A stretch of DNA of 64,000 nt. Source: Onthophagus taurus. Lineage: Eukaryota > Arthropoda > Insecta > Coleoptera > Scarabaeidae. The stretch lies in assembly GCF_036711975.1 (NCBI RefSeq), contig NC_091973.1:16120001-16184000 (forward strand), read 5' to 3'. Both the position numbers and the translations under genes were made by a program. Shown piece after piece: positions 16,927 through 64,000 of the stretch. Each line of letters begins with the position of its first letter. Positions within the stretch are counted from its first letter, which is position 1. The notes under the pieces were generated by a model that worked only from the letters and a program-made list of their open reading frames with translations, was not told where the DNA came from and did no database searches.

Positions 16927-18396
16927 CCGATTGGTAACTTTAATTTTAGGAGATACACCCAACACGGACGTACGTATAAGTATACTTGTGTGTGTGCATA
17001 TGCGCTCGGAGTATGTTTGTGGGAGGGGAATCGCAAGAGTAGTGGATCGGAGAGCAGTCAGTCGTTTGACATCGTTCAATGATAAGAAATATTATAAAAA
17101 TAATAACTAATATAATAAATGAAATTCAAATAAGACAAAGCAAATTCTTAATTCTAAAAATAAAAACAATTCGTAAGTAACTGAAATAAACTTTGTAAAA
17201 CAACAAATAAAACAAAAAACTATAGAAATAAAATATTTTTATATTAGGTGTTCAAATAAACCAAACATTGGGCCAAAAATTGGGCTAAACAATAGCCCAA
17301 TCTATCGTAAAAAGTTCGCCTTACATTCGCTAGTATATCGGGACTAATATCCTGTATACAATTGCGAATTTTTGTTTGTAAGTCATCCAGATTGGTTGTC
17401 CTTTCTTCATCAAAACCATAAATTTTCGATTTTAAATATCCCCATAGAAAAAAATCATTGGGGGCTAAATCTGGTGATCTAGGCGGCCAAGTTAACGTTC
17501 CGCAAATAGATATTACACGATTTGGAAATTGTGCGTTAAGATACTCTTTAACTTGCCGGCTGTTGTGAGCCGGGCAACCATCTTGTTGGAACCAGATACT
17601 TCCAAATTGAACATTGTCTAATTGTTGAAGCGATGGGATTACGTCATTTTACAAAATGTTTAAATACTTATGACCATTTAAATTTCCTTCTATGAAAAAA
17701 GGACCGATAATATGGTCACCTACTAAGCCAGCCCAAACATTTAATTTTTGGGGATATTGTGTACGAGCCGCATAAACTTTGTGTTCATTGTCACGACTCC
17801 AATATCGAGCAACGCTAAATAAAATGTTTTTTATAAAATCAACATTTCCGTTGGCCATTTCCATCATAGTAAAGCAAAATTCCGCCCTTGTAATATTATC
17901 GTTCTCGCAGAGTTCCTGACTTTTTTGTACCTTGTACGACCTGTACCCGTGTTTCTTTAATGTTTTTAGGACGGCAACATGGCTGATAGCAAACGTCTCC
18001 GCAACTTGTCTGCTTGACTGATTTTTATTGCGTTCAACATCAGCACATATCATCGTATCACGTAACTCATCTCTTTTACCCCTTCGTAATTTGTGTTTCT
18101 GTGGAGACACACATCCATGTCGCTCAAAGTTTTTAATAATATTTGAAATTGTTCCGCGACTAGGAATTGATCTGTTTTCATAGGCCACAGGAAACAATCT
18201 TAGTTTTTTTTTGCTAGGGTTAACTGCAAAGCGATGCGACCAACTTCGCCTGTCAACAATCTATGAACGATTCAATTTGTGCATTACCCCTACGCTTGTT
18301 TATCCCCCACTTAACGACACCGAATATACACACACACGTATACTTATACGTACGTCCGTGTTGGGTGTATCTCCTAAAATTAAAGTTACCAATCGG
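16927..18396 (-). mobile_element. DD41D mariner, copy 1
   Basis: 1470-bp DNA transposon with inverted ends of about 70 bp starting CCGATTGGTAACTTTAATTT and flanked by TA (16925-16926 and 18397-18398). Taking TA as the duplication and removing the element puts the surrounding integrase back in its expected frame, so the boundaries are well supported. About 98% similar by eye to copy 2 at 28928-30472, but it lacks about 77 bp covering the transposase start. Confidence 0.95.
17244..18197 (-). pseudogene. DD41D mariner transposase, copy 1
   Basis: Would cut and paste the element at TA sites. Visible: second helix-turn-helix (RQVAETFAISHVAVLKTLKK), then WFQQDGCPAHNS and WPPRSPDLAPNDFFLWG. From the Asp of QQD to the Asp of PND there are 41 intervening residues, the DD41D spacing. 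Lesions: the start codon and first 27 or so residues are deleted (present in copy 2 at 30267-30190). An in-frame TAA at 17651-17649 sits where copy 2 has CAA. The first catalytic Asp region is missing: LFS runs directly into VARYWS where relatives have about 20 more residues with LFSDE. The C-terminus also differs from copy 2. Confidence 0.92.
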
Positions 18397-19057
18397 TATA
18401 ATGTTATTTACGTGTGCGGTTATAAGAGCAGTCCATCTGGAATTGGTTCCAGATTTGACAACTGAATGTTGTATAAGAGGGTTGAGAAGGTTCATTGCCA
18501 GAAGGGGCGTTCCTGATGTTGTATACTCTGATAATGCCAAAACGTTTAAGAGAACAGATCTTGAATTAAGAAAATTATCCGCTATCTTGGAATCAAAAAA
18601 GATTCAGGTTTTAGTTAGAAAGCAGCGAAAAAGCAGCGATTCATTGGAGGTTTATAGCGGAAAGAGCTCCATGGTGGGGTGGCTTTTGGGAGAGAATGGT
18701 AAAAACCGTTAAAAACGCATTAAAAATAACTTTAGGTAGAGCATACGTCGAACGAGACGAATTAGAAACTATTTTAATAGAAATCGAGGCGACAATAAAT
18801 TGTCGTCCACTTACGTATATCAGTGATGACTGGACAGATTTGACTATATTATATCCTTCTCATTTTTGACTGGAAAGACTGAAGTAGGATTTTGTATGAA
18901 TTTAACCTCGAAGAAGATAAGTAGATCTGAAATATTGAAAAGGTGGAGAGATAGAGAGAAAACGTTGAAAAGATTTTGGGACAGGTGGCGTTCCGATTAT
19001 TTACAATTGCGGACAGCGCATCTAAGAAAATCGATAAATGCCAAATTCTTTAATTAA
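18397..19057 (+). pseudogene. Bel-Pao copy 2: integrase, right part
   Basis: Resumes the integrase core after the mariner: [13 protein letters not shown], then [10 protein letters not shown] with the second catalytic Asp (about 18515-18545), a frame-shifted stretch 18600-18860 and the C-terminal tail LKRWRDREKTLKRFWDRW typical of Bel-Pao DUF5641. Several indels are needed to read through. The sequence ends without a 3' LTR, next to the Tc1 relic. Confidence 0.82.
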
Positions 19058-28419: not shown

Positions 28420-28925
28420 AATGTTACGAAAATCGGTTTTGTGACTATGCGATTCAAGGTGTTTAAAAACAGCTGAAGATTCCTTTGTTAAGTGTTCTTT
28501 AAATCTAATTTTGAGATGTCTGCCCGCCTGTTCAATGTAAAACATATTGCAGTTAAAGCACTAAATCCTATAAACTCCATTCGACTCATCGATTCCGAAT
28601 CTATGTTTAGTATTATTAATACTATGAATACTATTCAATTTTTGAAGGTTATTTTTAAATTTGAGCTCAAGTGAAGGTATAAAAGGAACAGAGATGTATC
28701 TTGAAAGTGAAGTGAAATGGGGATATATCATTTTATTACTACAAGAATTGTGGGTTGTTTAATTTATTATGTTTATTATGTTTTTTAATTCTGAATTATA
28801 GTTATCTTCATTAGGAGGAATATTAAATAGCCTGTTAAAAAAAATCTGAATGCAGCTTCTTTGTACTGTTGGTAATTGAACGAGTTTTTTTTAGGATTAT
28901 AGCGGCGGTGGTAGTCGATTTTCTA
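28420..28925 (-). pseudogene. Penelope-like element: RT end and GIY-YIG nuclease
   Basis: Minus strand. From 28925 downwards the text matches the C-terminal RT region of Penelope-like elements (YRKSTTT, then FNRLFNIPP). It then shows a GIY-YIG endonuclease pattern: GVYRI, a stop where Gln is expected, CFNCNMFYIEQAGRHLKIR, KEHLT (about 28580-28480). Several stops and frame changes are present. The upstream part of the RT lies at 30475-30650, separated by the mariner insertion. Confidence 0.78.
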
Positions 28926-28927
28926 TA

Positions 28928-30472
28928 CCGATTGGTAACATTAATTTTAGGAGATACACCCAACACGGACGTACGTATAAGTATACTTGTGTGTGTGCAT
29001 ATGCGCGCGGAGTATGTTTGTGGGAGGGGAATCGCAAGAGTAGTGGATCGGAGAGCAGTCAGTCGTTTGACATCGTTCAATGATAAGAAATATTATAAAA
29101 ATAATAACTAATATAATAAATGAAATTCAAATAAGACAAAGCAAATTCTTAATTCTAAAAATAAAAACAATTCGTAAGTAACTGAAATAAACTTTGTAAA
29201 ACAACAAATAAAACAAAAAACTATAAAAATAAAATATTTTTTATATTAGGTGTTCAAATAAACCAGCATTCTGTGCTAAACAATAGCCCAATCTATCGTA
29301 AAAAGTTCGCCTTACATTCGCTAGTATATCGGGACTAATATCCTGTATACAATTGCGAATTTTTGTTTGTAAGTCATCCAGATTGGTTGTCCTTTCTTCA
29401 TCAAAACCATAAATTTTCGATTTTAAATATCCCCATAGAAAAAAATCATTGGGGGCTAAATCTGGTGATCTAGGCGGCCAAGTTAACGTTCCGCAAATAG
29501 ATATTACACGATTTGGAAATTGTGCGTTAAGATACTTTTTAACTTGCCGGCTGTTGTGAGCCGGGCAACCATCTTGTTGGAACCAGATACTTCCAAATTG
29601 AACATTGTCTAATTGTTGAAGCGATGGGATTACGTCATTTTGCAAAATGTTTAAATACTTATGACCATTTAAATTTCCTTCTATGAAAAAAGGACCGATA
29701 ATATGGTCACCTACTAAGCCAGCCCAAACATTTAATTTTTGGGGATATTGTGTACGAGCCGCATAAACTTTGTGTTCATTGTCACGACTCCAATATCGAG
29801 CAACGCTAAATAAAATGTTTTTTATAAAATCAACATTTCCGTTGGCCATTTCCATCATAGTAAAGCAAAATTCCGCCCTTGTAATATTATCGTTCTCGCA
29901 GAGTTCCTGACTTTTTTGTACCTTGTACGACCTGTACCCGTGTTTCTTTAATGTTTTTAGGACGGCAACATGGCTGATAGCAAACGTCTCCGCAACTTGT
30001 CTGCTTGACTGATTTTTATTGCGTTCAACATCAGCACATATCATCGTATCACGTAACTCATCTCTTTTACCCTTTTCGTAATTTGTGTTTCTGTGGAGAC
30101 ACACATCCATGTCGCTCAAAGTTTTTAATAATATTTGAAATTGTTCCGCGACTAAGAATTGATCTGTTTTCATAGGCCACAGGAAACAAATTAATTATTT
30201 GTGCTACAGAATTGCCACCATAAAACCATTTTATAATCTGTACCTTTTCCGCTACAGTAAACAACATCTTAGTTTTTTTTTGCTAGGGTTAACTGCAAAG
30301 CACGACCAACTTCGCCTCTCAACAATCTATGAACGATAATGAACGATTCAATTTGTGCATTACCCTTACGCTTGTTTATCCCCCACTTAACGACACCGAA
30401 TATACACACACACGTATACTTATACGTACGTCCGTGTTGGGTGTATCTCCTAAAATTAAAGTTACCAATCGG
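28928..30472 (-). mobile_element. DD41D mariner, copy 2
   Basis: 1545 bp, inverted ends of about 70 bp identical in type to copy 1 (CCGATTGGTAAC), flanked by TA (28926-28927 and 30473-30474). Removing it with one TA joins the Penelope reading frame on both sides, so the insertion was precise and the host element was already present. Confidence 0.95.
29241..30267 (-). pseudogene. DD41D mariner transposase, copy 2
   Basis: Start ATG at 30267 (MLFTVAEKVQIIKWFYGG). N-terminal helix-turn-helix, then a 1-bp insertion at about 30070-30075 (KLRKG then stop) shifts the frame. The rest stays open to 29241, ending AGLFEHLI. Second and third catalytic Asp are present in QQDGCPAH and PNDFFLW with 41 residues between. 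As in copy 1, the segment carrying the first Asp is missing: LFSVARYWSRD instead of a LFSDE-type stretch. So even with the frame corrected it would not be catalytic, though it keeps the DNA-binding region. Minus strand relative to the window. Confidence 0.93.
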
Positions 30473-30474
30473 TA

Positions 30475-30650
30475 TATGTTGAAATTGAGAAGGTTATTGA
30501 TAAGGTTCCTAGTTATCGTGAGATCTAAGAAGTTCAAACTATTTTGGTTTTCCATTTCTATTGTAAATTGTAGGTTACTTAAATTGTTAAAAATATTTGA
30601 ATTTGAAACAGTGTCACACTGAAAGATTCTGTTAATAAATATTTCTCATC
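30475..30650 (-). pseudogene. Penelope-like RT fragment, upstream part
   Basis: Minus-strand reading with LQFTIEMENQNSLNFLDLTI, a motif of the Penelope RT region (in-frame LNFLDLTI type), continuing across the mariner into 28925. 5'-truncated at about 30650. Confidence 0.7.
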
Positions 30651-30950: not shown

Positions 30951-30953
30951 TAG

Positions 30954-31164
30954 TGTAGTGCACTTATTGAAGTGTAAGCATCGACCTCAATTCGTATTGA
31001 GTAAAGGTAGTTTGTAGCGATAATAGCAGTAGAGTTGACGACAGTCAACGATACGTTACGCAAGTAGTCAGTAAGAAGTTATTGTAAGAAGTACTTATAA
31101 AATAGACGAATGATTTGAAAGGCGTTTAAGAGTTTAAATTCATTAACCCTTACCAACCACTTCA
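30954..31164 (+). repeat. 5' LTR of gypsy element
   Basis: 211 bp, TGTAGTGCACTTATTG...CCAACCACTTCA. Identity with the 3' LTR implies recent insertion. Carries the promoter by position. AGTCAGTAAG near 31065 could act as an initiator. Confidence 0.95.
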
Positions 31165-31180
31165 TGGCGACCGTGACACG
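31165..31180 (+). promoter_or_regulatory. Primer binding site, tRNA-Arg
   Basis: TGGCGACCGTGACACG starts directly after the LTR. The first 14 bases are complementary to the 3' end of arthropod tRNA-Arg (…TGTCACGGTCG-CCA). Confidence 0.85.
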
Positions 31181-31221
31181 TTTATTTTGGATAATAAAAT
31201 AGAACAGAAAAAAGGAAGAAA

Positions 31222-31461
31222 ATGGGCAATACGAAAAGTAAAGAAGCTACTGCAAACCAGGAACTTACGGAAACAGGAGCCGTAAATGCGAATTTTATGT
31301 TACAAGAACAACAAATAAGAGTTGATGTAGATGTGAAGATAATGTTGTATATCATGTTTGCAATAATGATCCTGAATTTCATTATGAAAGCATTGAAAGA
31401 ATACTCCAGACGCATTAAGAAGAGGACTGTCAGAAGGGCTGCTTCCCAATCGTTAGTTTAA
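31222..31461 (+). CDS. Leader micro-ORF, predicted myristoylated membrane protein
   Basis: 79 codons in the gypsy leader between primer site and gag, in good start context (AAGAAAATGG). The protein starts MGNTKSKE, fitting the N-myristoylation consensus (Gly2, Ser6). It has one strongly hydrophobic stretch of about 19 residues (IMLYIMFAIMILNFIMKAL, residues about 40-58), and ends in a basic tail (RRIKKRTVRRAA). Seen: an intact ORF inside a young element. Inference: it may attach to membranes and could help particle or RNA trafficking, or act as an uORF regulating gag. I do not recognise a named family. Some mdg1/412-group elements have short leader ORFs. Confidence 0.6.
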   Translation: MGNTKSKEATANQELTETGAVNANFMLQEQQIRVDVDVKIMLYIMFAIMILNFIMKALKEYSRRIKKRTVRRAASQSLV

Positions 31462-31637
31462 AAAGAAAAATCTGCTACCACAAGAAAAGGTACGTCCCAG
31501 AGAGAGGTGTTCAATCGGGTCATCGTGGATCAACGCCCGGAAACAATTTCTGCTGAGTTGGTGATTACTAATTACACAAACAGATTACAAATAAAAATAA
31601 CGTAAGCAATAATTTAATTTAGAAATATGTACGCGTT

Positions 31638-32873
31638 ATGTCATTAAAATGGGATCAATTAGAGCAATTATTTACAACTATTAAATTAGAACATTATAGG
31701 GAATCTAAACGAGCGATTAAAACAAATCCGCCGAAACAGCAATCAGTTCGTAATGATATTAGAGATAATTTAGTAATTCAATTTAACGATTTTTCAGATC
31801 TTGCAAATAATTATGGGAATAAACTTTCAATTGATCATAAAAAGTGGGTTAATGATTCTTTTTCTAATTTAAGAGATCGAACAGTAAAAGCTTTTGCCAA
31901 ATTAGACGTAAAATACATTGTTCCCCGTGATCCAATTAAACAAATAAACATCGTGTTAACAACTGCTGAGTCAGATAACGACGACTCAGATAACGAAATT
32001 ATTCAACTTGATACCATGGCGTCATTAAATGAGTTCATAAATTTTGCTGACAAAATATTACCGAAAAATTTTGACGGTAACCCTTCTGCGCTTATTTCTT
32101 TTATAGACGCAGTAACTATCTTAAAAGAAAATTGTGCTGGACATGAAGTCACAGCTTTAAGTTTAATTAAAACCAGGTTAACGGGTAAAGCTAGAGTTGC
32201 AATAACATCTGATGTTGTAGATTTAGAAGGAGTAATTACCGTTTTAAAATATAAATGTAAAGGTGAAAAGTCACACGTTATAGAGGCTAAATTAGCTAAT
32301 GTAAAGCAGCATGGTAAAGACGCGACCGTATTTACTAAAGAAATTGATGAAATTTCTGCAAATTTACTTTTAGCGTATATTTCGGAAGGCGTTCGTGAAG
32401 ATACGGCCGAGACGTTCGTTAAAAGTCGCGCAATTAAAGCAATGGCATCGAACGCGCGTTCCGAAAAAACTAAATTTGTCATGGAGGCAGGTTCCTATGA
32501 GACCTTGCAAGATGCTATTACTAAATTTCTTACAGTTGACACAGAAACAAATAATTCACCAAATGTCTTCTATGCAAATTATCAAAGAAACCGTAGAGGA
32601 AATTCCCATACACGCGGAAACTGCGCATATTTTTCTGGAAACCGCGGACATAATAGAAATAATGGTTATCGAAATAATCAAAATTTTAATAATAATCAAA
32701 ACCTTAATGATAATCAAAATTACCGAAATTCAAATTTTCAACAAAATTCAAATAGAAATTTTCGAGGTAATTACAGAGGAAACTTTAATAATTCCCAAAA
32801 TTCGGCGAGTGTAAGAATGTGTAATTCGGGAAACGACACTCGCCCCCAGCCAACACGGATGGGGGAATTGTAA
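31638..32873 (+). CDS. gag: Gypsy Gag (capsid/nucleocapsid)
   Basis: 411 codons, no interruption. The first two thirds are a helical capsid-like region (for example PKNFDGNPSALISFIDAV at about residues 135-155, typical of retrotransposon gag). The C-terminus is rich in Asn, Arg, Gly and Gln (about residues 315-395) and lacks a CCHC knuckle, so RNA binding probably depends on the basic low-complexity tail. Start ATG at 31638. Ends TAA at 32871-32873. Pol follows in the -1 frame. The region just before the stop has a run of five G (near 32861-32865), but I see no canonical slippery heptamer. Confidence 0.88.
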   Translation: MSLKWDQLEQLFTTIKLEHYRESKRAIKTNPPKQQSVRNDIRDNLVIQFNDFSDLANNYGNKLSIDHKKWVNDSFSNLRDRTVKAFAKLDVKYIVPRDPIKQINIVLTTAESDNDDSDNEIIQLDTMASLNEFINFADKILPKNFDGNPSALISFIDAVTILKENCAGHEVTALSLIKTRLTGKARVAITSDVVDLEGVITVLKYKCKGEKSHVIEAKLANVKQHGKDATVFTKEIDEISANLLLAYISEGVREDTAETFVKSRAIKAMASNARSEKTKFVMEAGSYETLQDAITKFLTVDTETNNSPNVFYANYQRNRRGNSHTRGNCAYFSGNRGHNRNNGYRNNQNFNNNQNLNDNQNYRNSNFQQNSNRNFRGNYRGNFNNSQNSASVRMCNSGNDTRPQPTRMGEL

Positions 32874-32884
32874 ACATAATAAAT

Positions 32885-35800
32885 TTGTCATATTCAAATT
32901 TTGTTACACTTGATCTGGAAATTTCTTCAGAAGAATGTACTTTTTTAGTTGATTCAGGAGCAGATATTTCACTAATCAAAGAAAGTTGTATTGTTACGAA
33001 TAATTACATATATTTCAAAAATTATAGCATTCGTGGTATTACGGATTCTTGCGTAAAATCTTCATAAGCGATATCAACAAAAATTTTCTTAAAAAACAAT
33101 AACTATGTAACACAAGAATTCGTAGTAGTTGATGATTCTTTTCCTATACCTTCACACGGAATCCTTGGTAGAGACTTTTTGACTCGCTATAAATGTATAG
33201 TAGATTACGACAAATGGACCTTAACTATCAATTTAGCTAAAACTTGCAGTTTTATGCCTATAACAACTGGTCCAGAAGAGAATTGTTTCATATTTCCAGC
33301 ATGGTCAGAAGTCACTCGATTAATTTCAATAAAAGAACCATATAAATACGTTTTTGTTCCCAGTCAGGAAGTTGCACCCGGTGTTTTTACTCAACGTACT
33401 ATAACACAGTCATCAAAAGCGTTAATAACTTTCATTAATACAAATACAACTAATGTCACTATTCAAAATTTAAAATTAAAAAATGAAAATTTAGATAATT
33501 ATAATATTTATTCAATCGAAAATGAAAATCATAACAGGGAATTCGAACTTTTACAAAATTTAAACACTAATGATGTACCAAAATTTGTCGTTAAAAATGT
33601 GACTGATTTGTGTAAGGAATTTTCAGATATATTTGCTTTACAGAATGATAAGTTGACACACAATAATTTTTATCAACAAACACTACAAACCACGGATACC
33701 ATTCCAGTTTATGTAAAAAATTATAGAATACCTCATTCGCAAAAGGCGGAGATAAATAGCCAAATTTCGAAAATGTTAAAAAATGATATTATTGAACCCT
33801 CAATAAGTTCTTACAATTCTCCAGTCTTATTAGTACCTAAAAAATCAAACACCACGGAGAAAAAATGGAGGCTGGTTGTTGATTTTAGGCAAGTGAATAA
33901 AAAATTAATAGCAGACCGTTACCCTTTACCACGCGTAGATGATATTTTAGATCATCTAGGTAGAGCAAAATGGTTTAGTGTGTTAGATTTGATGTCAGGG
34001 TTTCATCAGATACCGTTGGATACCAGTTCGCGTAATATAACTAGTTTTACAGCAGATGCTGGAACGTTTCGTTTTAAAAGGCTGCCATTTGGTTTATCGG
34101 TTAGCCCAAACAGTTTTCAGCGAATGATGAGTATTGCTTTTGCTGCACTTTCACCGGAGAAAGCATTCATGTACATGGATGATTTAATTGTGATAGGGTG
34201 TTCAGAAAATCATCATTTAAAAAATTTGAGATCGGTGTTTGCTACCTGTAGAAAATATTGCTTAAAATTAAACCCAGGAAAATGTCAATTTTTTAGAAAA
34301 GATGTAACTTATTTGGGACATCATATTACTGATAAGGGAATTCTACCAGATCAATCCAAATTTGATGTAATAAAAAATTATCCGAGACCTAAAGATGCAG
34401 ATTCCGTAAAAGGATTCGTAGCTTTTTGTAATTATTACCGGCGATTCATTCAAAATTTTGCAATGTACAGTTATCCTTTAAATAAATTAACTCGTAAAAA
34501 AGCGCAGTTTCAGTGGACCGATGAATGTGAAAACTCATTTCAACTATTAAAGAATGCCTTAATGAATCCACCTATTCTACAATATCCGCAATTTGATAAA
34601 CCGTTTATTATTACAACAGACGCTGCAAAATTTGCGGTCGGAGCCATACTCAGTCAGATGCATGATGATCAGGAACTTCCAATAGCTTACGCATCCAGAA
34701 GTTTCACGAAAGGAGAAATAAATAAATCAACAATTGAAAAAGAATTAAGTGCAATTCATTGGGCAATTATGCATTTTAGACCGTATGTTTATGGAACTAA
34801 ATTTATCGTTAAATCAGATCATCGCCCTTTGATTTATTTATTTTCTATGAAAAACCTTAGCTCGAAGCTTACGCGTATGAGATTGGATCTTGAGGAATTT
34901 AATTTTCACGTAGAGTATATCAAAGGTAAACATAATGTAGGTAGTGACGCGTTATCGAGAATAGATATTCAACAGTTAAAAGACACGAATGTCTCAACAG
35001 CTGAAATATTTGCTGTACAAACAAGGTCAATGGCTAAGAAATACGATATAGAAACTAAGAATCACAATAACGACAATACTACTAATGTAGAATTGAATAT
35101 TTACGAAGTAATAGAGAATTTTGAAGCTTTTCAGTTACCCAAGTTACATTTTATATTAAATACGGAAATTCCTAGGTTAGAAGTAAAAATAAATAAAGAA
35201 AAGCGCGCGCGAATAGTAATTGAATTAGGCAGAAACTTCATTAATGGAAAATTTGCATTAGAGCAAGTTATTTCTAGGCTAGATAATAAAGCCGGTGAAG
35301 AAGGGATAACAAGAATGAGACTCGAGTCAAATAATAATCTTTTTAATTATATCCCACTGTCAGAATTTAAATGTAGGGTTAGCAAAGAGCTTAAATTCTT
35401 AAAAATACTACTCACAAAACCGATAAAAACAATTACCGATAACGACGAGAAACAACAATTACTTCAAATGTTTCATATTAATCCAGTTTTAGGTGGTCAT
35501 TGCGGTAGAAAACGATTACTAGCTAAATTAAAATCATATTATTTTTGGAGAAAAATGAGTAAAGATGTATCAATTTTTCTAAAAACATGTAAACAATGTC
35601 AATTAAATAAACCTAAATTTAAAACTAAACAACCTCTTTGTGTAACGAATACTTCGCAAACAGCTTTTGATTTGGTTTTGATAGACACTGTAGGACCACT
35701 TCCAAAAACAATGAATAATAACGTTTATATTGTTACTATGCAATGCGATCTCACAAAATATTTGATAACAGCACCCGTACCATCTAAAGATTCAAAAACA

Positions 35801-36493
35801 ATAGCTAAGGCGATTTTTGACAGTTTTATACTCAAATATGGGCCTATGAAAGAGATACGCACAGACATAGGTACCGAATACGTCAATGAAACCTTTTCGG
35901 AAATAACTAAAATGTTGGATATTGGTCATAAAACTTCAACCGCTTATAGACCTCAAACGATAGGGTCAATCGAACGAAACCATAGAGTATTAAATGAATA
36001 TTTACGGATGTACATTAATGATCATAAGAATGATTGGGATGAGTGGGTCCAATATTTCGCCTATTGTTACAATACCACTCCCTCCTCAGTACATCAGTAC
36101 TGTCCCTTTGAATTAGTGTTTGGGAAAGCTCGTACATTACCGAAAAATCTTTCCCAAAATTCAGGAAACATCAATCCACTGTATAATATTGATTCTTATG
36201 CTACAGAAGTTAAGTATAGATTGCAAATTGCACTATCTCGGTCCAGTAAATATTTGCAAGATATTAAAGAGAAACGAAAGAATTATTTTGATGTAAACTT
36301 AAACCCTTTAAATGTTAAAAAAGGCGATTTAGTGTTACTAACAGACGAAACTAGACATAAGTTAGATTCCATTTATAAAGGACCGTTTATTGTAGAAAAT
36401 ATTGAAGAACATAATTGTATTGTTAAGGATAATAAAGGAAAATTAAATAAGGTACATAAGAATAGGTTAGTTAAATATTATAATTATGTATAA
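32885..36493 (+). CDS. pol: Gypsy Pol (protease, RT, RNase H, integrase), one internal stop
   Basis: One frame from the protease to the stop at 36491-36493, broken only by TAA at 33065-33067. Protease: LVDSGADISLI at about 32947-32980 and GILGRDFL at about 33161-33184. RT: YPLPRVDDIL, FSVLDLMSGFHQIPL, YMDDLIVIG (about 34171-34197). RNase H: TTDAAKFAVGAILSQ (about 34615). Integrase: HCGRKRLLAK ... CKQC zinc finger (about 35498-35600), then catalytic Asp in LIDTVGP, Asp in RTDIGTEY and Glu in GSIERNH. The -1 frame relative to gag implies translation by frameshift or reinitiation. The stop, near the end of the protease, would block a full Gag-Pol unless read through. Everything downstream is open for about 1,140 codons, which fits a very recent mutation. 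Confidence 0.93.
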
Positions 36494-36648
36494 GTAAGCT
36501 AAGTAGAATACGAAGAAATTGGCCAATTTCAAGAAAAAAAAAAAAAAAAAAAAAAAAAGATGAATTTATATACATTAATTAGATAAAAACGTAAGTTGTA
36601 GATGAAATTTTTAAGGGGGTAGGTATATGGGATATAAAATAATCTTTT

Positions 36649-36660
36649 AAAAGGGGAAGG
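36649..36660 (+). promoter_or_regulatory. Polypurine tract
   Basis: AAAAGGGGAAGG immediately before the 3' LTR, the expected plus-strand primer. An A-tract at about 36534-36559 lies further upstream, within the 3' untranslated part. Confidence 0.85.
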
Positions 36661-36871
36661 TGTAGTGCACTTATTGAAGTGTAAGCATCGACCTCAATTC
36701 GTATTGAGTAAAGGTAGTTTGTAGCGATAATAGCAGTAGAGTTGACGACAGTCAACGATACGTTACGCAAGTAGTCAGTAAGAAGTTATTGTAAGAAGTA
36801 CTTATAAAATAGACGAATGATTTGAAAGGCGTTTAAGAGTTTAAATTCATTAACCCTTACCAACCACTTCA
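36661..36871 (+). repeat. 3' LTR of gypsy element
   Basis: Identical by eye to the 5' LTR. Followed by GTAG, the right target duplication. Confidence 0.95.
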
Positions 36872-37500: not shown

Positions 37501-37587
37501 AATCATGATATGATATTTCGTTGCAACGTCCAGCATCTGCGGCTAGCCGCGACGTCCGACAATCAAGAACTGTTTCAAGTGTTTTTA

Positions 37588-37638
37588 AATTCGAGTGAAT
37601 TCGATAATGCGCGCCGCATTATCGAATTCACTCGAATT
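37588..37638. repeat. Perfect 24-bp-stem palindrome
   Basis: Arms 37588-37611 and 37615-37638 are exact inverted copies (ATTCGAGTGAATTCGATAAT plus GCG) around a CGC centre. Lies in the terminal region of Harbinger A. Could form a hairpin or cruciform. Confidence 0.92.
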
Positions 37639-37806
37639 CGATAATGACGACGGCGCGAATCGACGCGCCGTCTTGGCGGCTCAAAATGGCGAGACGTCAA
37701 CGGTTGCGTCTCGACTGGTACGGTACCAGTCAAACGCCAAGGCTTTGTACAAACGCCTATCAAATTTAACCAATTGAGTAGAACGTTCATTAGGATAATC
37801 ATAAAA

Positions 37807-37960
37807 ATGTCGCAAAAATGTTCTCGTATTAACGACGAACAGTTGGTTGAACAAGTGCGTGAATATCCATGCATTTATGGCCATGAAAATAAAGATTTTA
37901 GGGATTTTCAGATACGAGAAAATGCATGGAATCAAATTTCTAGTATATTATCGAAGAATC
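37807..37960 (+). pseudogene. Harbinger A MADF protein, exon 1
   Basis: ATG at 37807, then a MADF-type start: DEQLVEQVREYPCIYGH and ENAWNQISSIL. The exon ends one base into a codon at 37960, before the donor GTAAGT at 37961. MADF (Myb/SANT-like) proteins encoded by PIF/Harbinger elements bind DNA and help import the transposase. The next exon is 2.6 kb away at 40591, with transposase exon 2 (minus strand) lying in the intron. Confidence 0.82.
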
Positions 37961-38102
37961 GTAAGTATAAATAAATTATTTAATACTACCAACATGCAAT
38001 TACTTATTAGAGAATATTCATATATTTTTATTTTTATTTCATTTATTTCATTTTAATGATTTTATTTAATTTACAATAAATACGAAGCAAATAATTTTAT
38101 TA

Positions 38103-38638
38103 TTAACTACTTAATCTAAAAACACGTTTGTTTTGCCATTGGGTTGCGTCTTCTTCATTAAAACAGTCTGCAAACTGGTCTCTTACTTCCAATCCATTTG
38201 CATTTGCAAATTCTCCTCTCGCTACTAATGGAGTTATATTTTTCGGCATTTCTACATCGGATTCATATGCGTAAAATGGCTTTTTTCCAAATATGCGTCT
38301 CGTAATAAGTTGTGTAAACAACAAGTTGCTATGATTAGCTTATCGCATGACTGGTTTTATAGCTTTCGGTGTATAGTAAATGTGAAAAATTTTACATAAT
38401 AATCCGAATGCGTTTTCAGTTACTCGTTCATAACCGAGAATTGTAAATTTTCTTCCTTTTATCAGATTTAACTGATAACTTGCTGTATGGCTTCATTAAA
38501 TGTCGGTGTAGTCTAAACGCTTCATCGCCAACTACGACGTATGGTAGCTTTCTATTTGAATTAGGAAGAACTTCATCTTCTGGAAATAATTTGCCGGAAT
38601 ATACTTGATTACCTATTTTCGAGCTAGAAAATATGGTA
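38103..38638 (-). pseudogene. Harbinger A transposase, C-terminal part of exon 2
   Basis: Minus strand. After the solo LTR the DDE_Tnp_4 nuclease continues: SKIGNQVYSGKLF, PYVVVGDEAFRLHRHLMKPY, then, frame-shifted, VTENAFG with the third acidic residue (Glu) at about 38440-38420. The C-terminal end is KPFYAYESDVEMPKNITPL to the stop at 38103. Stops and frame changes lie near 38440-38330. Confidence 0.85.
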
Positions 38639-38642
38639 CTAT

Positions 38643-40329
38643 TGTTACAGTCTAATTTATTCCAATGTTTTGTATTTATGTTACTTGTAAATTTTTTTTA
38701 TATTGTAATTTTTTTAAGCGACAGAATCTGGAGATCCTTTTTTCCCTTCCTATTATTCCTTCATTTGTACGGAATTATAATTATAAATTTTCTTTTCTTT
38801 CCATTCTTTTCTTATATTTCGCCTTCTCTTTAATAGATGTCATTTTCTTAATTCTTTACTTATTTTAAATTTCATACGGAAAAGTTATTGCGCGCAGGTC
38901 GAGTTTTTTTTTTTCGAAATTGGATTTAGGTTTTGGAAGAGGAAGTCTCACTCTTTTTGGTGGCACGAGACTCAACGTGTAACGTCGTTGTGTAGGCGTT
39001 TTGGTTGACATTTGAGTGATTCATTTGGTCATAATTTGATTTAACGCATCCGAATTAATCGGGATCATCACATCGACAATTTATTTGAGAACAAGTTTAA
39101 GTTCTTTCTTACGGTTAACCCGGCTATTTTGCGTTTTGAGTCGATTTACCTTTCACACGTGCGAGGCCTTTAACATCTGAGGTATGTGATAGTAATTTAA
39201 TAGAAATTTAATCATTCAATCATTTATTCAGACACAATCAATACTTATAATATTTGATAATTTCAAAAAAAAAAAAAAATTGTTTAACTTAATAATTTAA
39301 TAATTCTTTTTCTTTCTTCTCTTTCTCCTTCTTTTTTAATTTTTTGTATCGTCCTTTTACTAATTTTTAGGCCTCCTATTTTGGGATATTATTATTCCGG
39401 GAATAGTTTCTTTGGATTTTTACATTGGGATTTTTCCATTCCAAAAGGAAAAAAAAAATCAAATAATATAATTGTATGGTGGAGTGCCACCCCTCTGCCG
39501 ACTCCGAATACTTTCCCTCTCCAGAGGAATCGCTGCATAAAGAAGAATCTTACCCGTATCAAGGTCAGAACGTATATGTAAAGTTATTTTGTGTTCATTA
39601 ATGTGTTGAATCGCTATAAAAAAAAAGTTAATAATACTTACATTTGAGAATTTACTATAAACATTTAAAAATTTTACTTACCTTGCAAATAAATTATTGC
39701 AGATTGTAAGGGTAAAACCTAAATTTTGGGGTGATTTTTTTTTATTTTTTTTTCTCGTCGAATTTTTTTTGGTTTTACTACGTTTCAAAAGACAAGCTTG
39801 TACTTTAAACAAAACGTATCGGGATCAATTTGTTTCAATTTCTTTTGTTGAATTTTTTTTATTACCGAATATTTTCTACAGTTTTTTTTTATTTTCATTT
39901 TAAAGTTAATTTTAACTTCTCCCAAAACAGTGGGTTTCCCATTTATTTAAATTTGAGTTATGTTATAATACTTTAGTTTATATTTTCGAATCTTCATTTT
40001 TTTATTATTCAATTTCTTTCTACAATTCAATTTTTTTGTTTTAATAAACCAACTTATTTTTTTGTAATATCAGGTGTTTTATAGAAATTTTGTATATGTG
40101 ATCCTTGTGTGCCTATTCCTATTCCGGAACATCTACATTTCATAATTGATGGACATCGCTGTAATAAATTACGTGGCGCCAGATATAAATTAACGAACCT
40201 CCCCGTCTTCACTGAGCTAGTTGAGGTTCGGCGATGTTTTCATTTTTTTGGGTTGGCACGGAAGGGTTAAGGGAAAACCATCTTGGTCAAAAATTTTTTT
40301 TGTTGATTCCGGTACGTAACGGCGTTATA
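38643..40329. mobile_element. Solo LTR, 1.69 kb, in Harbinger transposase
   Basis: Begins TGTTACAG, ends GGCGTTATA, flanked by CTAT (38639-38642 and 40330-40333). The Harbinger transposase reading continues directly across when it is ignored, so it is an insertion. No internal coding. Homologous to the LTR at 41024-42749: both share CAAGGTCAGAACGTAT (39560-39575 and 42034-42049), a GTGGCGCCA motif followed by similar text (about 40172 and 42621), T-rich tracts and splice-like sites. Inference: recombination between the two LTRs of a former element left one copy. Confidence 0.82.
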
Positions 40330-40566
40330 CTATCTCCTTCTTTGCCGTAAGCACCAACATCCACAAACAAAAATTTGCAATTTGCGTCTACCATAGCAAG
40401 TAGAACTATCGAAAAATACTCTTTATAGTTAAAAAATAGAGAGCCACTCTTCTTGGGACAAAATATTCGGACATGCTTGCCATCAACACCTGCGACACAA
40501 TTCGGAAAGTTCCACTTATTCCAAAAATCTAATGCTTTCTCTTTCATATTTATTGACGTTTTTGTG
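40330..40566 (-). pseudogene. Harbinger A transposase, N-terminal part of exon 2
   Basis: Minus strand: [27 protein letters not shown] (first catalytic Asp), [13 protein letters not shown] (second Asp). About 45 codons expected at the exon start (present in element C at 63710-63850) are deleted. The exon is cut at the GDS codons by the solo LTR. Confidence 0.88.
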
Positions 40567-40590
40567 CTTTTCTTATTATTATTTTTGTAG

Positions 40591-40715
40591 CTGAAGACTG
40601 TAAAGGTCGCTGGAAAAGTATCCGCGATAACTATTTACAACAAAAAAGAAGACAGAAATTGGGGACCGGTTCAGCAGCGTTTTTAATTTCTAAATGGTGT
40701 AAAATTTGAACGGAG
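40591..40715 (+). pseudogene. Harbinger A MADF protein, exon 2
   Basis: Acceptor ATTTTTGTAG at 40581-40590. The codon phase matches exon 1. It encodes [20 protein letters not shown], the core of a MADF domain. Compared with element C it lost about a dozen codons near 40695-40705, which shifts the frame. Donor GTTTAA at 40716. Confidence 0.8.
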
Positions 40716-40771
40716 GTTTAACTTAACAGTTCATGTATGTTTCAAAGATATCTTATTTGTTATTATTGTAG

Positions 40772-41023
40772 CCGCCATGAAAGTTTTGAATGTCCGAATC
40801 CCAACGAAGCAAACGAAGAAAACTTTGTCACTGATTTGGAAGATGGAAATAACGTTGGATCACCGGAGAGCGATTTTCCTGTACATGTACATAACGTTGG
40901 ATCACCGGAAAACGATATTCCTGTACATGTACCTAACGTTGGATGACCGGAAAGCGATATTCCTGTACATGTAAATGAACCAAAAAACAAAAACGTGCTG
41001 CTAGTATAAATCGCTCGGGTACT
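40772..41023 (+). pseudogene. Harbinger A MADF protein, exon 3 with 42-bp repeat
   Basis: Acceptor TTATTGTAG ends at 40771, same phase as in element C. Acidic linker (NEANEENFVTDLEDG), then three tandem copies of a 14-residue unit NVGSPESDFPVHVH (40851-40976). The third copy has TGA for Cys/Ser-type TCA at 40944-40946. The exon is interrupted at 41024 by an LTR element. Its continuation with the BESS region is at 43752-44016. Confidence 0.78.
40851..40976 (+). repeat. Three 42-bp coding tandem repeats
   Basis: Units start AACGTTGGATCACCGGA at 40851, 40893 and 40935. Element C has a single counterpart (DVGSPDS), so the array expanded in A. Confidence 0.92.
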
Positions 41024-42749
41024 TGTTACCTTTTTTGTTTCCTTTTTTTTATCCTTCCCAATTTTCTTTCTTTTATTTAATTCTATTTAGAGATGCAAAG
41101 TTTTTTTTTAATTTGTAGAGAATATGTTTTTTTTTTTTTTTACAGTGACGATATTCACGGCGGTGCAGAGTCCTATTTTTCTGTAGTTACCCTTTCCAAA
41201 AATGGCTGTCTCTGATAAGATTTTTTTTTTAAATTATTCAATTTAGTTAGTCTATCGTTTCTCTAATTCAGTTCTTTTCACTTTTCAATTTCATTTATTT
41301 AATTTTATTAGAATTTTAAATTAAAGTTTCATAAATTTCACATAGTAATTTTTAATAAACAAATTTATTCTGAACATATTTTGATTTTGTTGGTACCAGA
41401 TGTGACGTTAAGTTCGCATTTTTTTTATTCGGTATTTAAAGAAATCCGGATATGAGATTCTCTCTCTTTTACCAAGTCAGTCGTTAAAGACATATCTAGT
41501 GAACTTGTTGCCAAAATTTTTGAGTTTTGTGATTTAACTTTTGGATTATTTTGGGCATATCCGCTGTTAGCGAAGTCATCACGAAGATATTCATTTTATT
41601 TATAATTCCTGACGGAATATAAATTTACGGAGTTATTCCGGAGTTAATTATTTTAACGAAAATTAAACAGTTTTTTTACTGACTAAGGCCTCGAAGATCG
41701 GAGGTAGGTTTCATCTAGTTTTTTTTAACTTTTATTAAAGTCATTTAATTTACCTTTAATCCATTTACATTTGTGATCAAATTTAAATATTTTTTTTTTG
41801 CTTAATTAAATCTAATACATCGTTTTCGATTTTCTTTCCACTTTAGGCTTTTAATTTTGGGGTAATTCATATCCTATTTAAAAGGAGCAAAAATTAGACA
41901 GTTTGTGAAATCTAAGACCTAAGCCATTACAATAATCATTGTCCTTTCACGAAGAAGGATTACTGCTACTACTGTGGAGATCGTCCCTGGAGGATATCAC
42001 TTTTTTTTGGAAAACATATCGTCAACAAAATTTCAAGGTCAGAACGTATCAATTTTCTTTTGGAATCAACGATTTTTGTAGGGAAATGAACATATTTTTT
42101 TTGTTGTTCAAAAGTTTTGTAAGAAAATGTAAACAAACCTTTGTTATAATTTATTTTTTTTTAATTTAATTCGTTCAACTTAACTTTTTTTCTTAAAGAA
42201 AGATAAATAAATAAATAGATAACTTTTTTTAAATAAATACTTACACAGTTAGATTTAAACTTAATTATTTTCGTTTGTTAAAAGACTTAAAATTGGGATT
42301 AGTTAGTCGTTTTTATTATTTTTTTTTAATTTGATTTAAACGTTTTTCCCTGACAAGCTTGTAGAGGGGGGGGGCGAATCATTAAGTTTCGCGATATTTT
42401 TGTTATTTGTTTTTTTTTTTGTTTCCCATTTTATCTCTTATAAAAAGAATTTGATGTGTGATTTTTTTTTATCTTTCATATTAACTTTTTTTTTTTTTGT
42501 GTTACCTTTGCATCTCTTGAATAGAATTGTTTATATCGTTATTTTGATTTTAAATTTCCTTTTCCCTCTCTTTTTCCAACAACCCACTTCACCATTAGTG
42601 TGGATCAAGGGATTTCAATGGTGTGGCGCCAAATAAATGAACTACCCCTCCAACCCTGAACTAGCCTCATATTATTTAGATTGGGAATTAGGAATCAATT
42701 TATTTTTGTTTTGTATCTTCTTTTCTCAATTTGTTTTGAAGGCGTAACA
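41024..42749 (+). repeat. 5' LTR, 1.73 kb, T-rich
   Basis: Very T-rich. Carries possible splice sites at positions corresponding to those in the solo LTR: donor GTAGGT at 41705 (39182 GTATGT), acceptor TTTAG at 41846 (39370), donor-like GTCAG at 42038 (39564). The boundary with the primer site is clear. Confidence 0.75.
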
Positions 42750-42752
42750 TTT

Positions 42753-42770
42753 TGGCGCCCAACGTGGGGC
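42753..42770 (+). promoter_or_regulatory. Primer binding site, tRNA-Lys type
   Basis: TGGCGCCCAACGTGGGGC three bases after the LTR. This is the well-known complement of tRNA-Lys(1,2). Confidence 0.9.
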
Positions 42771-42911
42771 CACAAATAAATAAATATATACAAAATTTTC
42801 TTTTCCAGTGTATATTTTCTTGTGATCATATTATATTGATTTTGTTAGTTTTTTTTTTAATAATTATCACATTTATTATATTACGTAAAGCAGAAGTCAA
42901 ATTCAATTATC

Positions 42912-43751
42912 ATGGATGTGAACAGGTTGAATGTCGACGAGTTAAACTACGAATTAGCTATCCGAGGGATTACAGGGAAATTTTCTTGCGATGAAATGAG
43001 ACATACTCTTAGAAAACTTCGAAAGATGGAAAAAGATTCAAGTTTTGAATGGCCCACATATCCATTTACTTATGAAGAGGATTCAAAAGCTGTGGACGAT
43101 AAAATCAACACACTCACACCGTTAGTTGATGATTTTACAGGAAGTAAGGCTTCAAATAATTACAAAAAGTTAGATAGTCGACTTACTCATCTCTTAGATA
43201 GAGCTACACGAATAAAACCTACAACTAAAGCAGAACAGGATAATAAATTAAAATTAATATCTACGATTGTTTCTTTAATTTCACGATTGGAAGTTAAAGG
43301 GAAAGCTCACACTTCGACACCTACGAAATCAGTAGCTGAATTAAGTTTAATGGCAGGAAATTCTTCGTCAGGAGAAGAGACAAGTGATTCAACTGATGAT
43401 GCTAAAGAAATTATGTGTATGAAACCAATTCCTGTGACGAAATGGGGAATTAAATTTACAGGAGAACCAACACGTTCCTTGAGCGCATTCCTGGAGAGAG
43501 TTAAAGAATTGAGCGTTGCGAGGAGGGTGTTTCGAAACGCATTATTTTTGTCAGCGATTGATTTGTTCAAAGGTAAAGCCTTGATATGGTATAGAGCCAA
43601 TAGAGACTCGTTTACGAGTTGGGAAGAATTGGTTGAAGGATTACGTTTAGACTATGATGGTAGATTGTTGGAAGAAATTCGTAAGAGAACTCAAGCATCA
43701 AGTGAAACCATCGGTATTTATATAGCAACTATGAAAAATAACATACTCCCG
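42912..43751 (+). pseudogene. gag: LTR element Gag, 3'-truncated
   Basis: Open from ATG at 42912 (MDVNRLNVDELNYELAIRGI). N-terminal helical region similar to a SAP-like motif (ELNYELAIRGI), a charged linker, then a capsid domain of the Arc/Ty3 gag type: WGIKFTGE, SLSAFLERVKEL, LFKGKALIWYRANRD, SWEELVEGLR, IGIYIATMKNN (about 43437-43745). The C-terminal part of the capsid, the knuckles and all of pol are absent because Harbinger sequence takes over at about 43752. Confidence 0.85.
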
Positions 43752-44016
43752 TATCAAGAAGATCCACACCGAGCATTTCAACAAAATCTAAACTGCTCCG
43801 TAATATTGAAGAGCGTTCAAACCAGCGCTTACAAATGTTAACACAATTAACACAATAAAAAGAGGACGATGATGTTGATTCATGAAAAGTATAGCCTTAA
43901 TGGTAAAAAAACTACCGCCCCGTTTGGTTAACCAAGCGAAATTGCAAATCCTAACTTTGGTTAGTAACATGCAAGACTCTGCTGCATCATCTAATGTTAA
44001 TGTTTCACAAACTTAA
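43752..44016 (+). pseudogene. Harbinger A MADF protein, BESS-domain end
   Basis: In the frame SRRSTPS ... KLLRNIEERSNQRL, an in-frame TAA near 43857 interrupts it. Then DDDVDSFMKSIALMVKKLPP follows, which is a BESS motif (protein interaction), ending NVNVSQT and TAA at 44014-44016. Matches the final exon of element C (62792-63398). Confidence 0.82.
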
Positions 44017-44107
44017 AACATTATAATTTCGTTAATAAATAAGACAACTGTAAATGATAATAATTATATTGAATCTGGTATAAATAGTGTTTAAAAGTTT
44101 TTCTTAC

Positions 44108-44416
44108 CTTAATGTTAATGCTAATTTTCCTCTGCAGAAATTGGGATTTTCATACTATTTGTGGACTGTTTAGTTAAATCTGTATCGATAACATTCAACA
44201 CAAAATTAAACTGATCTTTATTTAGTCTAAAAAAACTGCGAAACTTTTCATCGTCAGAATTTAAATGGCTTTTTATAAGTATTTGGTATATCCCTCTTGA
44301 TTCCGAGATTTGTAAATCTCATTAGTTTCTTCACGTGTGGATAGCAAGAGTCTCATGTAATCGTCATCATCTTCTTCTTCTAACAAAATTAATGTAGCTA
44401 AAGTTTTCTTATCCAT
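44108..44416 (-). pseudogene. Harbinger A transposase, exon 1
   Basis: Minus strand, ATG at 44416: DKKTLATLILLEEEDDD, then RSFFRLNKDQFNFVL, the N-terminal region of PIF/Harbinger transposases. Contains a frame change near 44285 and a 1-bp loss near 44115. Donor GTAAG after 44108 matches element C. The next exon is at 40566, so MADF exons 2 to 4 lie in this intron on the other strand. Confidence 0.82.
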
Positions 44417-44559
44417 TTTGAAAAGGTATGTTTCACGTTAGAACTATGATGGATACAACTGCCGAAACGCACACGATAACATTTGATTTTTTGACATCGT
44501 AGGATTTAAATCAATTAAAACACTTTTTATAATTAATTATTATTTATTCTATTAGTTTC

Positions 44560-61688: not shown

Positions 61689-62226
61689 TAAGACTATCAA
61701 AATCAAATATAAAGAAGAAAACGCTCAGCAAAAAATAGCAAAACACTATCAACAACCGCTCACGATCGCCAAAAGCAAAGTGATGTCCAAACGAAATATT
61801 TAAAAAAAAGTATTAAAAATATATTAAAAATAGTTTATTGTAATTATTATTGTAACGTTTCCTTTTGATTGAAAATTATTATCTGTCAAAATTTTACGGA
61901 ATTCCTTAATTAAATCATTCATAATAAAATACAACAAAATATTTATTTTCATTTTCGTTTAGAGTTTGTCAGTTGTTACCATCCAATTCTGGGAAACATC
62001 CCCGTCTCTTTAAATGTCGCGCGGTAAGATTTTACAAAGGGTTTGCGATGGTCATAAAAAAATGAGATAACGCAATCACCTAGAATTTTAATTTTTTGAT
62101 GGTATTTATTCTTTTAAGTTTCGTTTGGACATCACTTTGCTTTTGGCGATCGTGAGCGGTTGTTGATAGTGTTTTGCTATTTTTTGCTGAGCGTTTTCTT
62201 CTTTATATTTGATTTTGATAGTCTTA
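61689..62226. mobile_element. Inverted-repeat element with 108-bp arms
   Basis: 61689-61796 and 62119-62226 are perfect inverted copies by eye (outer end TAAGACTATCAAAATCAAAT), spacer about 320 bp without coding. It abuts Harbinger element C at 62229. Looks like a MITE or foldback. Target duplication unclear. Confidence 0.75.
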
Positions 62227-62385
62227 AGGTGGAATTTCGTTGCGACGTCCAGCGTTCGCGGCCCGCCGCGACGTCCAGCAGTAACGGCCAGCCGTTACGT
62301 TCGCGTGAATTTCGTTGGAACGTCTGAGTCTGTGCTTCGGCAGCATTTATGTTCATGCTTCTGTAGTGAAAGGTGCTTTTTAAAA

Positions 62386-62693
62386 ATGGATAGGAAGACG
62401 TTAGCGGCATTGATTTTGCTAGAAGAAGAAGAAGATGATGATATTAGGCTTTTGCTATCCATTCGTGAGGACACTAGCGAGTTATATAAATCTCGAAACC
62501 AAGAAGGGTATTTTGAAATACTTATAAGAAATCATCTCAATGCCGATGATGAAAAGTTTCGCAGTTTCTTCAGGCTAAATAAAGAGCAATTTAATTTTGT
62601 GTTGAATCTCGTTCATGCAGATTTGAAGAAACAATCCACAAATTGTGTGAAAAACCCAATTTCTCCTGAGGAAAAGTTAGCGTTGACCTTAAG
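62386..62693 (+). CDS. Harbinger C transposase, exon 1
   Basis: ATG at 62386 chosen because the protein start matches exon 1 of element A (DRKTLAALILLEEEEDDD against DKKTLATLILLEEEDDD). Acidic N-terminus, then RSFFRLNKEQFNFVLNLV, the usual start of the PIF/Harbinger helix-turn-helix region. Open throughout. The exon ends with two bases of a codon before the donor GTAAGG at 62694. Exon 2 starts at 63710 in matching phase. The 1016-bp intron holds two exons of the accessory gene on the other strand. Confidence 0.88.
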
Positions 62694-62791
62694 GTAAGGA
62701 TGTTTTCTTTGTAAAAAAATACAGATGTTTAAAAAAAAACCAACAATTTTATCAAAAATGCACGTTTAATTAACAAAAGCAATATATAAGT

Positions 62792-63398
62792 TTATTTCAT
62801 GTTGTAATAGTCGTTTGAATAGGGTGTCATAAACGTAGTGGGCGTATGATCGTCAGGTGTACTTGTATTATGGGAAGTATTGAGGGAAAATGTTGGAGTT
62901 GGTGCCTGTGGTTGGTGGGGTTGTGTCTGTGTATGTGGAATATTTATTATTGGGGAAGATGCTTGTAAATTAGTCACTAGTGTTAGGATTTGTAACTTTG
63001 CTTGCGATATTAAATTGGGAGGTAGCTTTTTTACCATTAGAGCGATGCTTCTCATGAATAAATCCACTTCATCTTCTTCCTTTTGGTGCGTTAATTGTGA
63101 TAGAACGTGAAGACGATGTTTAGACCGTTCTTCCAATTCGTGTAATAATTTCGCTTTTGCGTTGCTAGGTGTTGAACTGCTGCAAGTTGGCGTGTTTGAA
63201 CGGCTTCTATCGTCCATGTTTGTTCTTTTTAGTATTTTCGGATTTGGCTGATTTAAATGTATGGAATCTGGTGATCCTACGTCGTCTTTAATTATTCTTG
63301 ATTGCGATTCCGAATCAGTTTGAACATCTTCATCGCCGCTATCCTGAGTATTCTGAGATGATTCGGTGTTTTGCTGTACATTACAATTTTGAATGCGG
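62792..63398 (-). CDS. Harbinger C MADF/BESS protein, last exon
   Basis: Minus strand, acceptor TTATTGTAG before 63398, open to TAA at 62794-62792 (201 residues after the split codon). Contains the linker with DVGSPDSIHLN, a coiled-coil-prone stretch (KLLHELEERSKHRLHVLSQL) and a BESS motif (EVDLFMRSIALMVKKLPPNL), then a Pro/Thr/Ser-rich tail. BESS mediates protein contacts of MADF factors. Positioned wholly inside the transposase intron. Confidence 0.88.
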
Positions 63399-63457
63399 CT
63401 ACAATAATAAATAAATAAGAAAACTTAAAAAAACATAACTCAAAAGAGATAGTATAC

Positions 63458-63617
63458 CTTCGTTCAGATTTGAGAAGTTCCAAAAATGTTAGCTGTTCGT
63501 ATAAATGCCATTTTGATGGTCTTGTTGATGCTGCCGAACCAGTTCCTTGCTTTTGTTATCTTTTTTGTTTTAAGTAGTTATCGCGAATATTTTTCCATCG
63601 CAATTTACAATCCTCGG
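63458..63617 (-). pseudogene. Harbinger C MADF protein, middle exon with one stop
   Basis: Minus strand, acceptor TTTCCAG before 63617, donor GTATAC after 63458. The phase fits the last exon. Encodes EDCKLRWKNIRDNYLKQK of the MADF domain, then an in-frame TAA where element A has an Arg/Lys codon (near 63567-63565), then GTGSAAST. Exon 1 would lie beyond 64000, past transposase exon 2, by analogy with element A. Confidence 0.82.
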
Positions 63618-63709
63618 CTGGAAAAATAAAATAAGAATAGGTACATAATATAAAAACATGAAATTGTATCGTATCGTATCGAATGATGTTTTGATGTTCT
63701 TTTTTTTAG

Positions 63710-64000
63710 GTTTTTAGCTACAGGTGAAACATTTAAATCCCTTTCATTTGCCTTTCGTATCTCATCCAGCTACATTTCAATTGTTGTCCGAGAAACATTA
63801 GAAGTGCTATGTCTGCGTTTAGTTCCTATATTTCTACCACCACAAAATGAAATAGATATGAAGGAAAAAGCACAGGAATTTTGGAATAAGTGGAATTTTC
63901 CTAACTGCGTCGCAGGAGTTGATGGCAAACATATTCGAGTTTTTTGTCCCAGAAAAAGCGGATCGCTATTCTTCAATTACAAGGATTATTTCTCAATATT
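63710..64000 (+). CDS. Harbinger C transposase, exon 2 (cut by window end)
   Basis: Acceptor TTTTTTTAG ends at 63709. Open in phase with exon 1: FLATGETFKSLSFAFRISSS (DNA-binding region), FLPPQNEIDMKEKAQEFW, then GVDGKHIRVF with the first catalytic Asp (about 63917-63945). The second Asp and Glu lie past 64000. No lesion seen in the part present. Confidence 0.9.

Follow-up and report, generated by a model that had tools for sequence, protein, structure and literature searches.

The 64,000-base-pair (bp) stretch of the genome of Onthophagus taurus (Coleoptera, Scarabaeidae) analysed here, which comprises positions 16,120,001 to 16,184,000 of contig NC_091973.1 (assembly GCF_036711975.1) and is referred to as the window, contains at 37.5-44.5 kilobases (kb) what is very probably (a probability of about 0.8) a decayed two-gene PIF/Harbinger DNA transposon, whose genes for a DDE transposase and for a MADF-BESS partner protein are reciprocally nested on opposite strands, in an old arrangement that is hard to undo. 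The first-pass annotation of the window had described this mutual nesting from the single broken copy. The source genome was searched for intact copies carrying both genes, and such relatives were found; in all three families for which an intact element was modelled (A, B and C) the nesting is kept, and none of these elements has its two genes lying apart.

Close relatives were retrieved by DNA search of the same genome (290.8 megabases, 33 contigs). Family A is represented by the intact element L009, in which both frames are open, and family C by L019, likewise intact, whose transposase is 56% identical to that of family B. Family B itself is a 3,022-bp element present at nine of the retrieved loci (L010-L018), six of which are full length; its terminal inverted repeats of 56 bp are 98% identical, and a 3-bp target duplication of the form TWA, either TAA or TTA, flanks all nine. 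The other five full-length copies differ from L010 at 1, 2, 4, 1 and 2 of the 3,022 positions, which shows recent copying of these elements, and both modelled frames are open in each of the six. Among the nine loci, the donor of MADF intron 1 is gone from L013, 68 bp of intron are missing from L016, and both L017 and L018 are short of 31 bp in transposase exon 2.

In the family B element, the MADF gene is predicted on the plus strand with exons at element positions 242-395, 1631-1790 and 1850-2456, giving after predicted splicing a product of 306 amino acids, and the transposase gene on the minus strand with exons at 2862-2555 and 1538-620 and a predicted product of 408 amino acids. The intact transposase is HARBI1-like and matches DDE_Tnp_4 (PF13359) over the full profile (E=4.1e-26), while the second protein matches MADF (PF10545, E=1.4e-21) and BESS (PF02944, E=2.1e-4, 21.5 bits at a cut-off of 21). 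The pairing of MADF with BESS is a feature of host Adf-1-like factors; in the MADF protein of L010 the BESS motif occupies residues 214-246.

Along the element, MADF exon 1 (+) is followed by transposase exon 2 (-), MADF exons 2 and 3 (+) and transposase exon 1 (-). Families A, B and C all place transposase exon 2 within MADF intron 1, and MADF exons 2 and 3 within the transposase intron. The gaps between adjacent exons on opposite strands are, in this order, 172, 78 and 169 bp in A, 224, 92 and 98 bp in B, and 581, 208 and 360 bp in C; since all are positive, the coding overlap is zero, and the shared exons of which the first-pass annotation had spoken are absent from the coding parts of these families. 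With coding exons that do not overlap, the mature mRNAs should not pair, and double-stranded RNA could form only via unspliced RNA or untranslated ends. The coding spans of the two family B genes share about 1.8 kb of the 3.0-kb element.

The introns of A, B and C are of the GT-AG type, and their phases agree in all three, being 1 and 2 in the MADF gene and 2 in the transposase gene. The first intron of the family B MADF gene cuts the MADF domain (residues 13-97, junction near 51), and the transposase intron cuts a weak HTH_Tnp_4 match that stays below the cut-off (residues 92-141, junction near 103). Both proteins are thus interrupted in their DNA-binding region, and neither could be made complete from unspliced RNA. 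The modelled transposase is identical over its 408 amino acids to database protein P0009, a gene model whose source is not shown, and a protein of Hypothenemus hampei with 324 amino acids, likewise a gene model, can be aligned with 98% of the spliced MADF product. Between A and B, the ratio of nonsynonymous to synonymous substitution rates (dN/dS) is 0.11 for the transposase and 0.12 for the MADF gene, the latter with dS saturated at 2.7.

The layout had been presented as a property of one element, named PIF/Harbinger A, and proved far more widespread. Further loci were collected by DNA searches with the transposase exons of families C and G, of a K-like locus and of one more fragment, which gave more matches than the loci analysed; the resulting 34 regions consist of 33 retrieved loci (L009-L041, including 15 and then 7 later additions) and the window copy. 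Their open frames were searched with profiles of MADF, built from 56 database proteins and those of A-C, and of the transposase, built from 17 sequences. All four parts occur in the interlocked order in 25 of the 34 regions, 24 by a strict profile order test and the window copy by alignment to L009, its transposase exon 1 falling just beyond the distance limit of the test. The layout is partial but consistent in four more (L022, L031, L036 and L038), two are fragments (L034 and L039), and the remaining three (L037, L040 and L041) constitute family N, which is interlocked or side by side. A MADF match on the transposase strand was found by the profile search in none of the 34 regions. Because the same four-part order recurs in 25 of 34 regions, it is more than chance.

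The transposases fall into 14 groups below 85% identity, with A and B at 83%, C and C' at 82%, and all other pairs at 34-60% in the DDE columns. Eleven groups have the full layout (A, B, C, C', D, E, F, G, H, J and L) and two the partial one (K and M). When the best-scoring in-frame GT-AG junctions were taken, D, F, G, J and L have the transposase intron of A, B and C (phase 2, at 'TL|R(F/Y)'), and E, G, J and L have their phase 1 MADF intron; intron positions and phases are thereby shown to agree wherever junctions could be modelled from sequence. At the partial locus L022, an Onthophagus taurus database protein matches at 100% over 324 residues. No relatives were found in the viral and prokaryote sequence collections. 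From other species, four pairs of database proteins, each corresponding to transposase exon 2 and the last MADF exon, come from contigs of equal size (2856, 2598, 2849 and 2323 bp), which suggests that each pair lies on one contig, in an orientation that is not given.

Several observations weigh against the reading as an interlock of two spliced genes. All loci belong to a single genome and were recruited by their similarity to transposase DNA; of the 25 regions with the full layout, nine are nearly identical copies of family B. The transcripts are predicted, as are the splice junctions and polyadenylation sites. Other database models from the same genome do not bear out the complete exon chains: P0138, a MADF model, is confined to the final 141 residues of exon 3, and two transposase models, P0082 and P0112, are without exon 1 or most of it. 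The best candidates of the GT-AG junction scan were unconvincing for the MADF genes of D, F and H and for the transposases of E and H. AATAAA also occurs on the sense strand within both introns, three to five times per intron in A, B and C, and premature ends inside the introns are therefore not visibly avoided. Depletion of AATAAA in the introns, considered as a sign of selection, was rejected on the same counts.

The transposase of family N breaks near profile position 152, versus about 104 elsewhere, and the MADF domain of this family (Pfam 2e-15) is unsplit in L041; the whole recognisable domain precedes the catalytic exon of the transposase. An open reading frame (ORF) of 161 amino acids lies on the MADF strand between the two transposase exons. 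If this ORF were the end of the MADF protein, which is a weak reading, family N would be interlocked with other intron positions. The ORF scores only 7.9 bits to the MADF profile and has no Pfam match, and the joining scan returned no in-frame GT-AG junction for either gene, so that the two genes of family N may equally be side by side.

The arrangement suggests how the two genes may be expressed and why they stay together. Transcription would start near each end and run inward, with primary transcripts that, in family B, would overlap over at least the 1.8 kb common to both coding spans; splicing would remove the complementary parts and leave two non-complementary mRNAs, each gene ending inside an intron of the other. 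Candidate polyadenylation signals are located at most about 150 bp from each stop codon, within the intron of the other gene, which is weak evidence given that AATAAA also occurs elsewhere in the introns. A deletion or inversion of the middle would break both genes, so the arrangement would be hard to undo, and transposase and partner would remain together. We prefer this as the reason for its conservation, as no one-step reversal would exist and joint inheritance would be guaranteed.

Coupling of expression by converging transcription is possible, and a regulatory explanation of the interlock would build on it. According to this explanation, selection keeps the layout because converging transcription, or nuclear double-stranded RNA from unspliced RNA, damps expression and prevents overproduction of the transposase. 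The persistence of the full layout in 11 transposase groups, most pairs of which are only 34-60% identical, and the long overlap of the family B coding spans are in its favour; however, the coding exons do not overlap, inheritance and the difficulty of reversal explain the same facts, and family N may have lost the interlock or never had it. We consider regulation unlikely to be what maintains the layout. A broader proposal sees reciprocal nesting as a design that insect PIF/Harbinger elements acquired long ago and that is actively maintained in them; we judge it doubtful. The nesting would act as a topological lock on joint inheritance, deletion and transcription, might limit transposase dose by itself through converging transcription and, should the weak reading of family N be correct, might occur in a separate lineage with introns at other positions.

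Joint inheritance is compatible with the history of the two proteins. Pairwise distances of the transposase and of MADF correlate in 13 of the 15 labelled families (Mantel r=0.853, p=0.0001, with H and I, which are 97% alike, both counted, and C' and K omitted for having too few MADF columns), as is expected if partners are seldom exchanged. Because the two genes of fish Harbinger elements, for which the available text states no interlock, are likewise congruent (PMC9179366), this congruence is consistent with a lock and not specific to it.

Ordinary nested genes consist of an opposite-strand gene within an intron of another gene; they differ from the present elements, where the nesting is mutual and exons of each gene lie in an intron of the other. 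PIF/Harbinger elements with a transposase and a Myb/SANT/MADF protein resemble those described here in their DDE_Tnp_4 domain, terminal inverted repeats and 3-bp TTA/TAA target duplication, the two proteins having 408 and 306 amino acids here, and differ in that their genes are neighbours instead of being reciprocally nested on opposite strands. Both proteins are indicated to be needed for transposition of the rice and zebrafish elements, as summarised in the available part of a study of Anopheles (PMC9710019). In the same text, the APLG1/APM1 and APLG2/APM2 pairs each combine a transposase and a MADF gene thought to stem from one PIF insertion; unlike the beetle elements, these are host genes 97 and 179 bp apart, one pair being annotated as a single transcript, with no interlock (PMC9710019). 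The Medicago elements, in the portion of the paper at hand, also carry in one element a transposase with one or two introns and an orf1, which is located either before or after the transposase (PMC2213677). The view of the first-pass annotation that relatives usually encode the two proteins as separate neighbouring genes agrees with these printed Anopheles and Medicago layouts (PMC9710019, PMC2213677).

The arrangement might also be neither special nor new, animal Harbinger elements with a MADF or Myb partner being commonly interlocked and already described as such. Its prevalence among the families sampled in Onthophagus taurus fits this possibility, which the literature makes quite unlikely: the domesticated Anopheles pairs are closely spaced neighbours, one of them annotated as a single transcript (PMC9710019), orf1 of Medicago takes either side of the transposase (PMC2213677), and the words 'orientation', 'opposite' and 'overlap' are absent from the main text of the fish Harbinger survey (PMC9179366). 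No description of interlocking was found in the accessible text of the PIF/Harbinger literature searched, which includes PMC11893794, PMC5741667 and PMC12135582 and leaves older primary papers on animal Harbinger structure outside.

The copy in the window was aligned piecewise to its intact family A relative L009 (Table 1). The MADF exons of the first-pass annotation, the last of which begins at about 43744 or at 43752, match this alignment. For the transposase, the exon at 44416-44108 and the end of the second exon at 38103 were borne out, while position 40566, proposed as the beginning of that exon, is no splice site: transposase similarity stops at 40553, and a 182-bp deletion at 40553/40554 has removed L009 3907-4088, comprising the start of exon 2, the acceptor and the spacer. 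In the 3' part of transposase exon 2, deletions of 7, 2 and 8 bp break the frame, and further small indels break both genes. As two insertions, each flanked by short repeats of target sequence, have entered the element, its long apparent introns are mostly inserted DNA. The insertion in transposase exon 2 is possibly a solo long terminal repeat (LTR); the long ORF of the insertion in MADF exon 3, for which no Pfam match was obtained, is in our reading gag-like. With its two insertions, the 182-bp deletion and the frameshifts, the window copy is dead. That its nesting is an artefact of decay, due to insertions or inversions that came later or to exons wrongly assigned in a single broken copy, has a negligible probability, for although this copy does carry two large insertions and a deletion, the same order is found in insertion-free intact copies and in 25 of 34 regions, and the intact copies rule out chance or decay as its cause.

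Table 1. Features of the decayed element and of a second, interlocked family B element in the window (window coordinates).
Feature	Position	Strand	Remarks
Left terminal inverted repeat remnant	37510..37578	+	77% identity to the left end of L009
MADF gene exon 1	37807..37960	+	aligns to L009 MADF exon 1 (2804-2957); donor GTAAGT next
Transposase exon 2, 3' part	38103..38642	-	aligns to L009 3130-3686; tblastn with family B transposase
Insertion in transposase exon 2	~38643..40327		TACTAT or ACTAT on both sides; absent from L009-L018
Transposase exon 2, middle part	40329..40553	-	92% to L009 3682-3906
MADF gene exon 2	40591..40715	+	aligns to L009 4127-4286; about 35 bp lost, frame broken
MADF gene exon 3, 5' part	40772..41023	+	three 42-bp tandem units; L009 alignment
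Insertion in MADF exon 3	~41024..43743	+	TACT on both sides; long ORF from 42864
MADF gene exon 3, 3' part	43744..44016	+	aligns to L009 4504 onward; tblastn
Transposase exon 1	44108..44416	-	aligns to L009 5042-5352; single-base losses at 44124 and 44287
Second interlocked element (L017, family B)	62226..64000, on to ~65216 beyond the window	+	inverted relative to the first element

At the right end of the decayed copy, no inverted repeat was seen at 44.48 kb. Near its left end, a perfect inverted repeat (arms of 24 bp, loop of 3 bp) is located at 37588-37638, about 31 bp of which have no counterpart in the L009 alignment. The tandem 42-bp units of MADF exon 3 occupy 40843-40976, and L009 is without extra units. 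The second element is 99.8% identical to L010 apart from being one of the two copies with the 31-bp deletion noted above. It is 99.9% identical over 5.1 kb, flanks included, to L018, which is situated on the same contig at a distance of about 142 kb; the two look like one insertion that has been duplicated, either by a recent segmental duplication or as an artefact of the assembly.

Short repeats were noted in the ends of intact elements. The 9-mer GCGACGTCC is present twice in each family B end (L010 element positions 16-50 and the mirrored end), and the ends of family C (L019) contain GTGCGTCTGACGCA twice on the left and once on the right. These repeats, which lie between each element end and the start codon closest to it, are candidate binding sites of the MADF protein.

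Further DNA that is apparently mobile lies near the decayed copy. Just to its left, two identical 212-bp direct repeats within 30953-36871 flank ORFs of 416 and 1141 amino acids, and this segment looks like a young LTR retrotransposon. Farther away, two 1.5-kb copies with short inverted ends (16923-18405 and 28924-30480) are 98% identical over 1,277 bp and apparently represent another recently moved DNA element.

Two-gene transposons must keep both genes together. If neither gene could survive a deletion or inversion of the middle, a layout of this kind, present in families that have diverged deeply, would meet this need by simple structural means. The interlock could also bear on the frequent co-inheritance and co-domestication of the transposase and its MADF partner. 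The compact 3-kb element, with its near-identical intact copies, would offer a testable system for the study of converging transcription and splicing.

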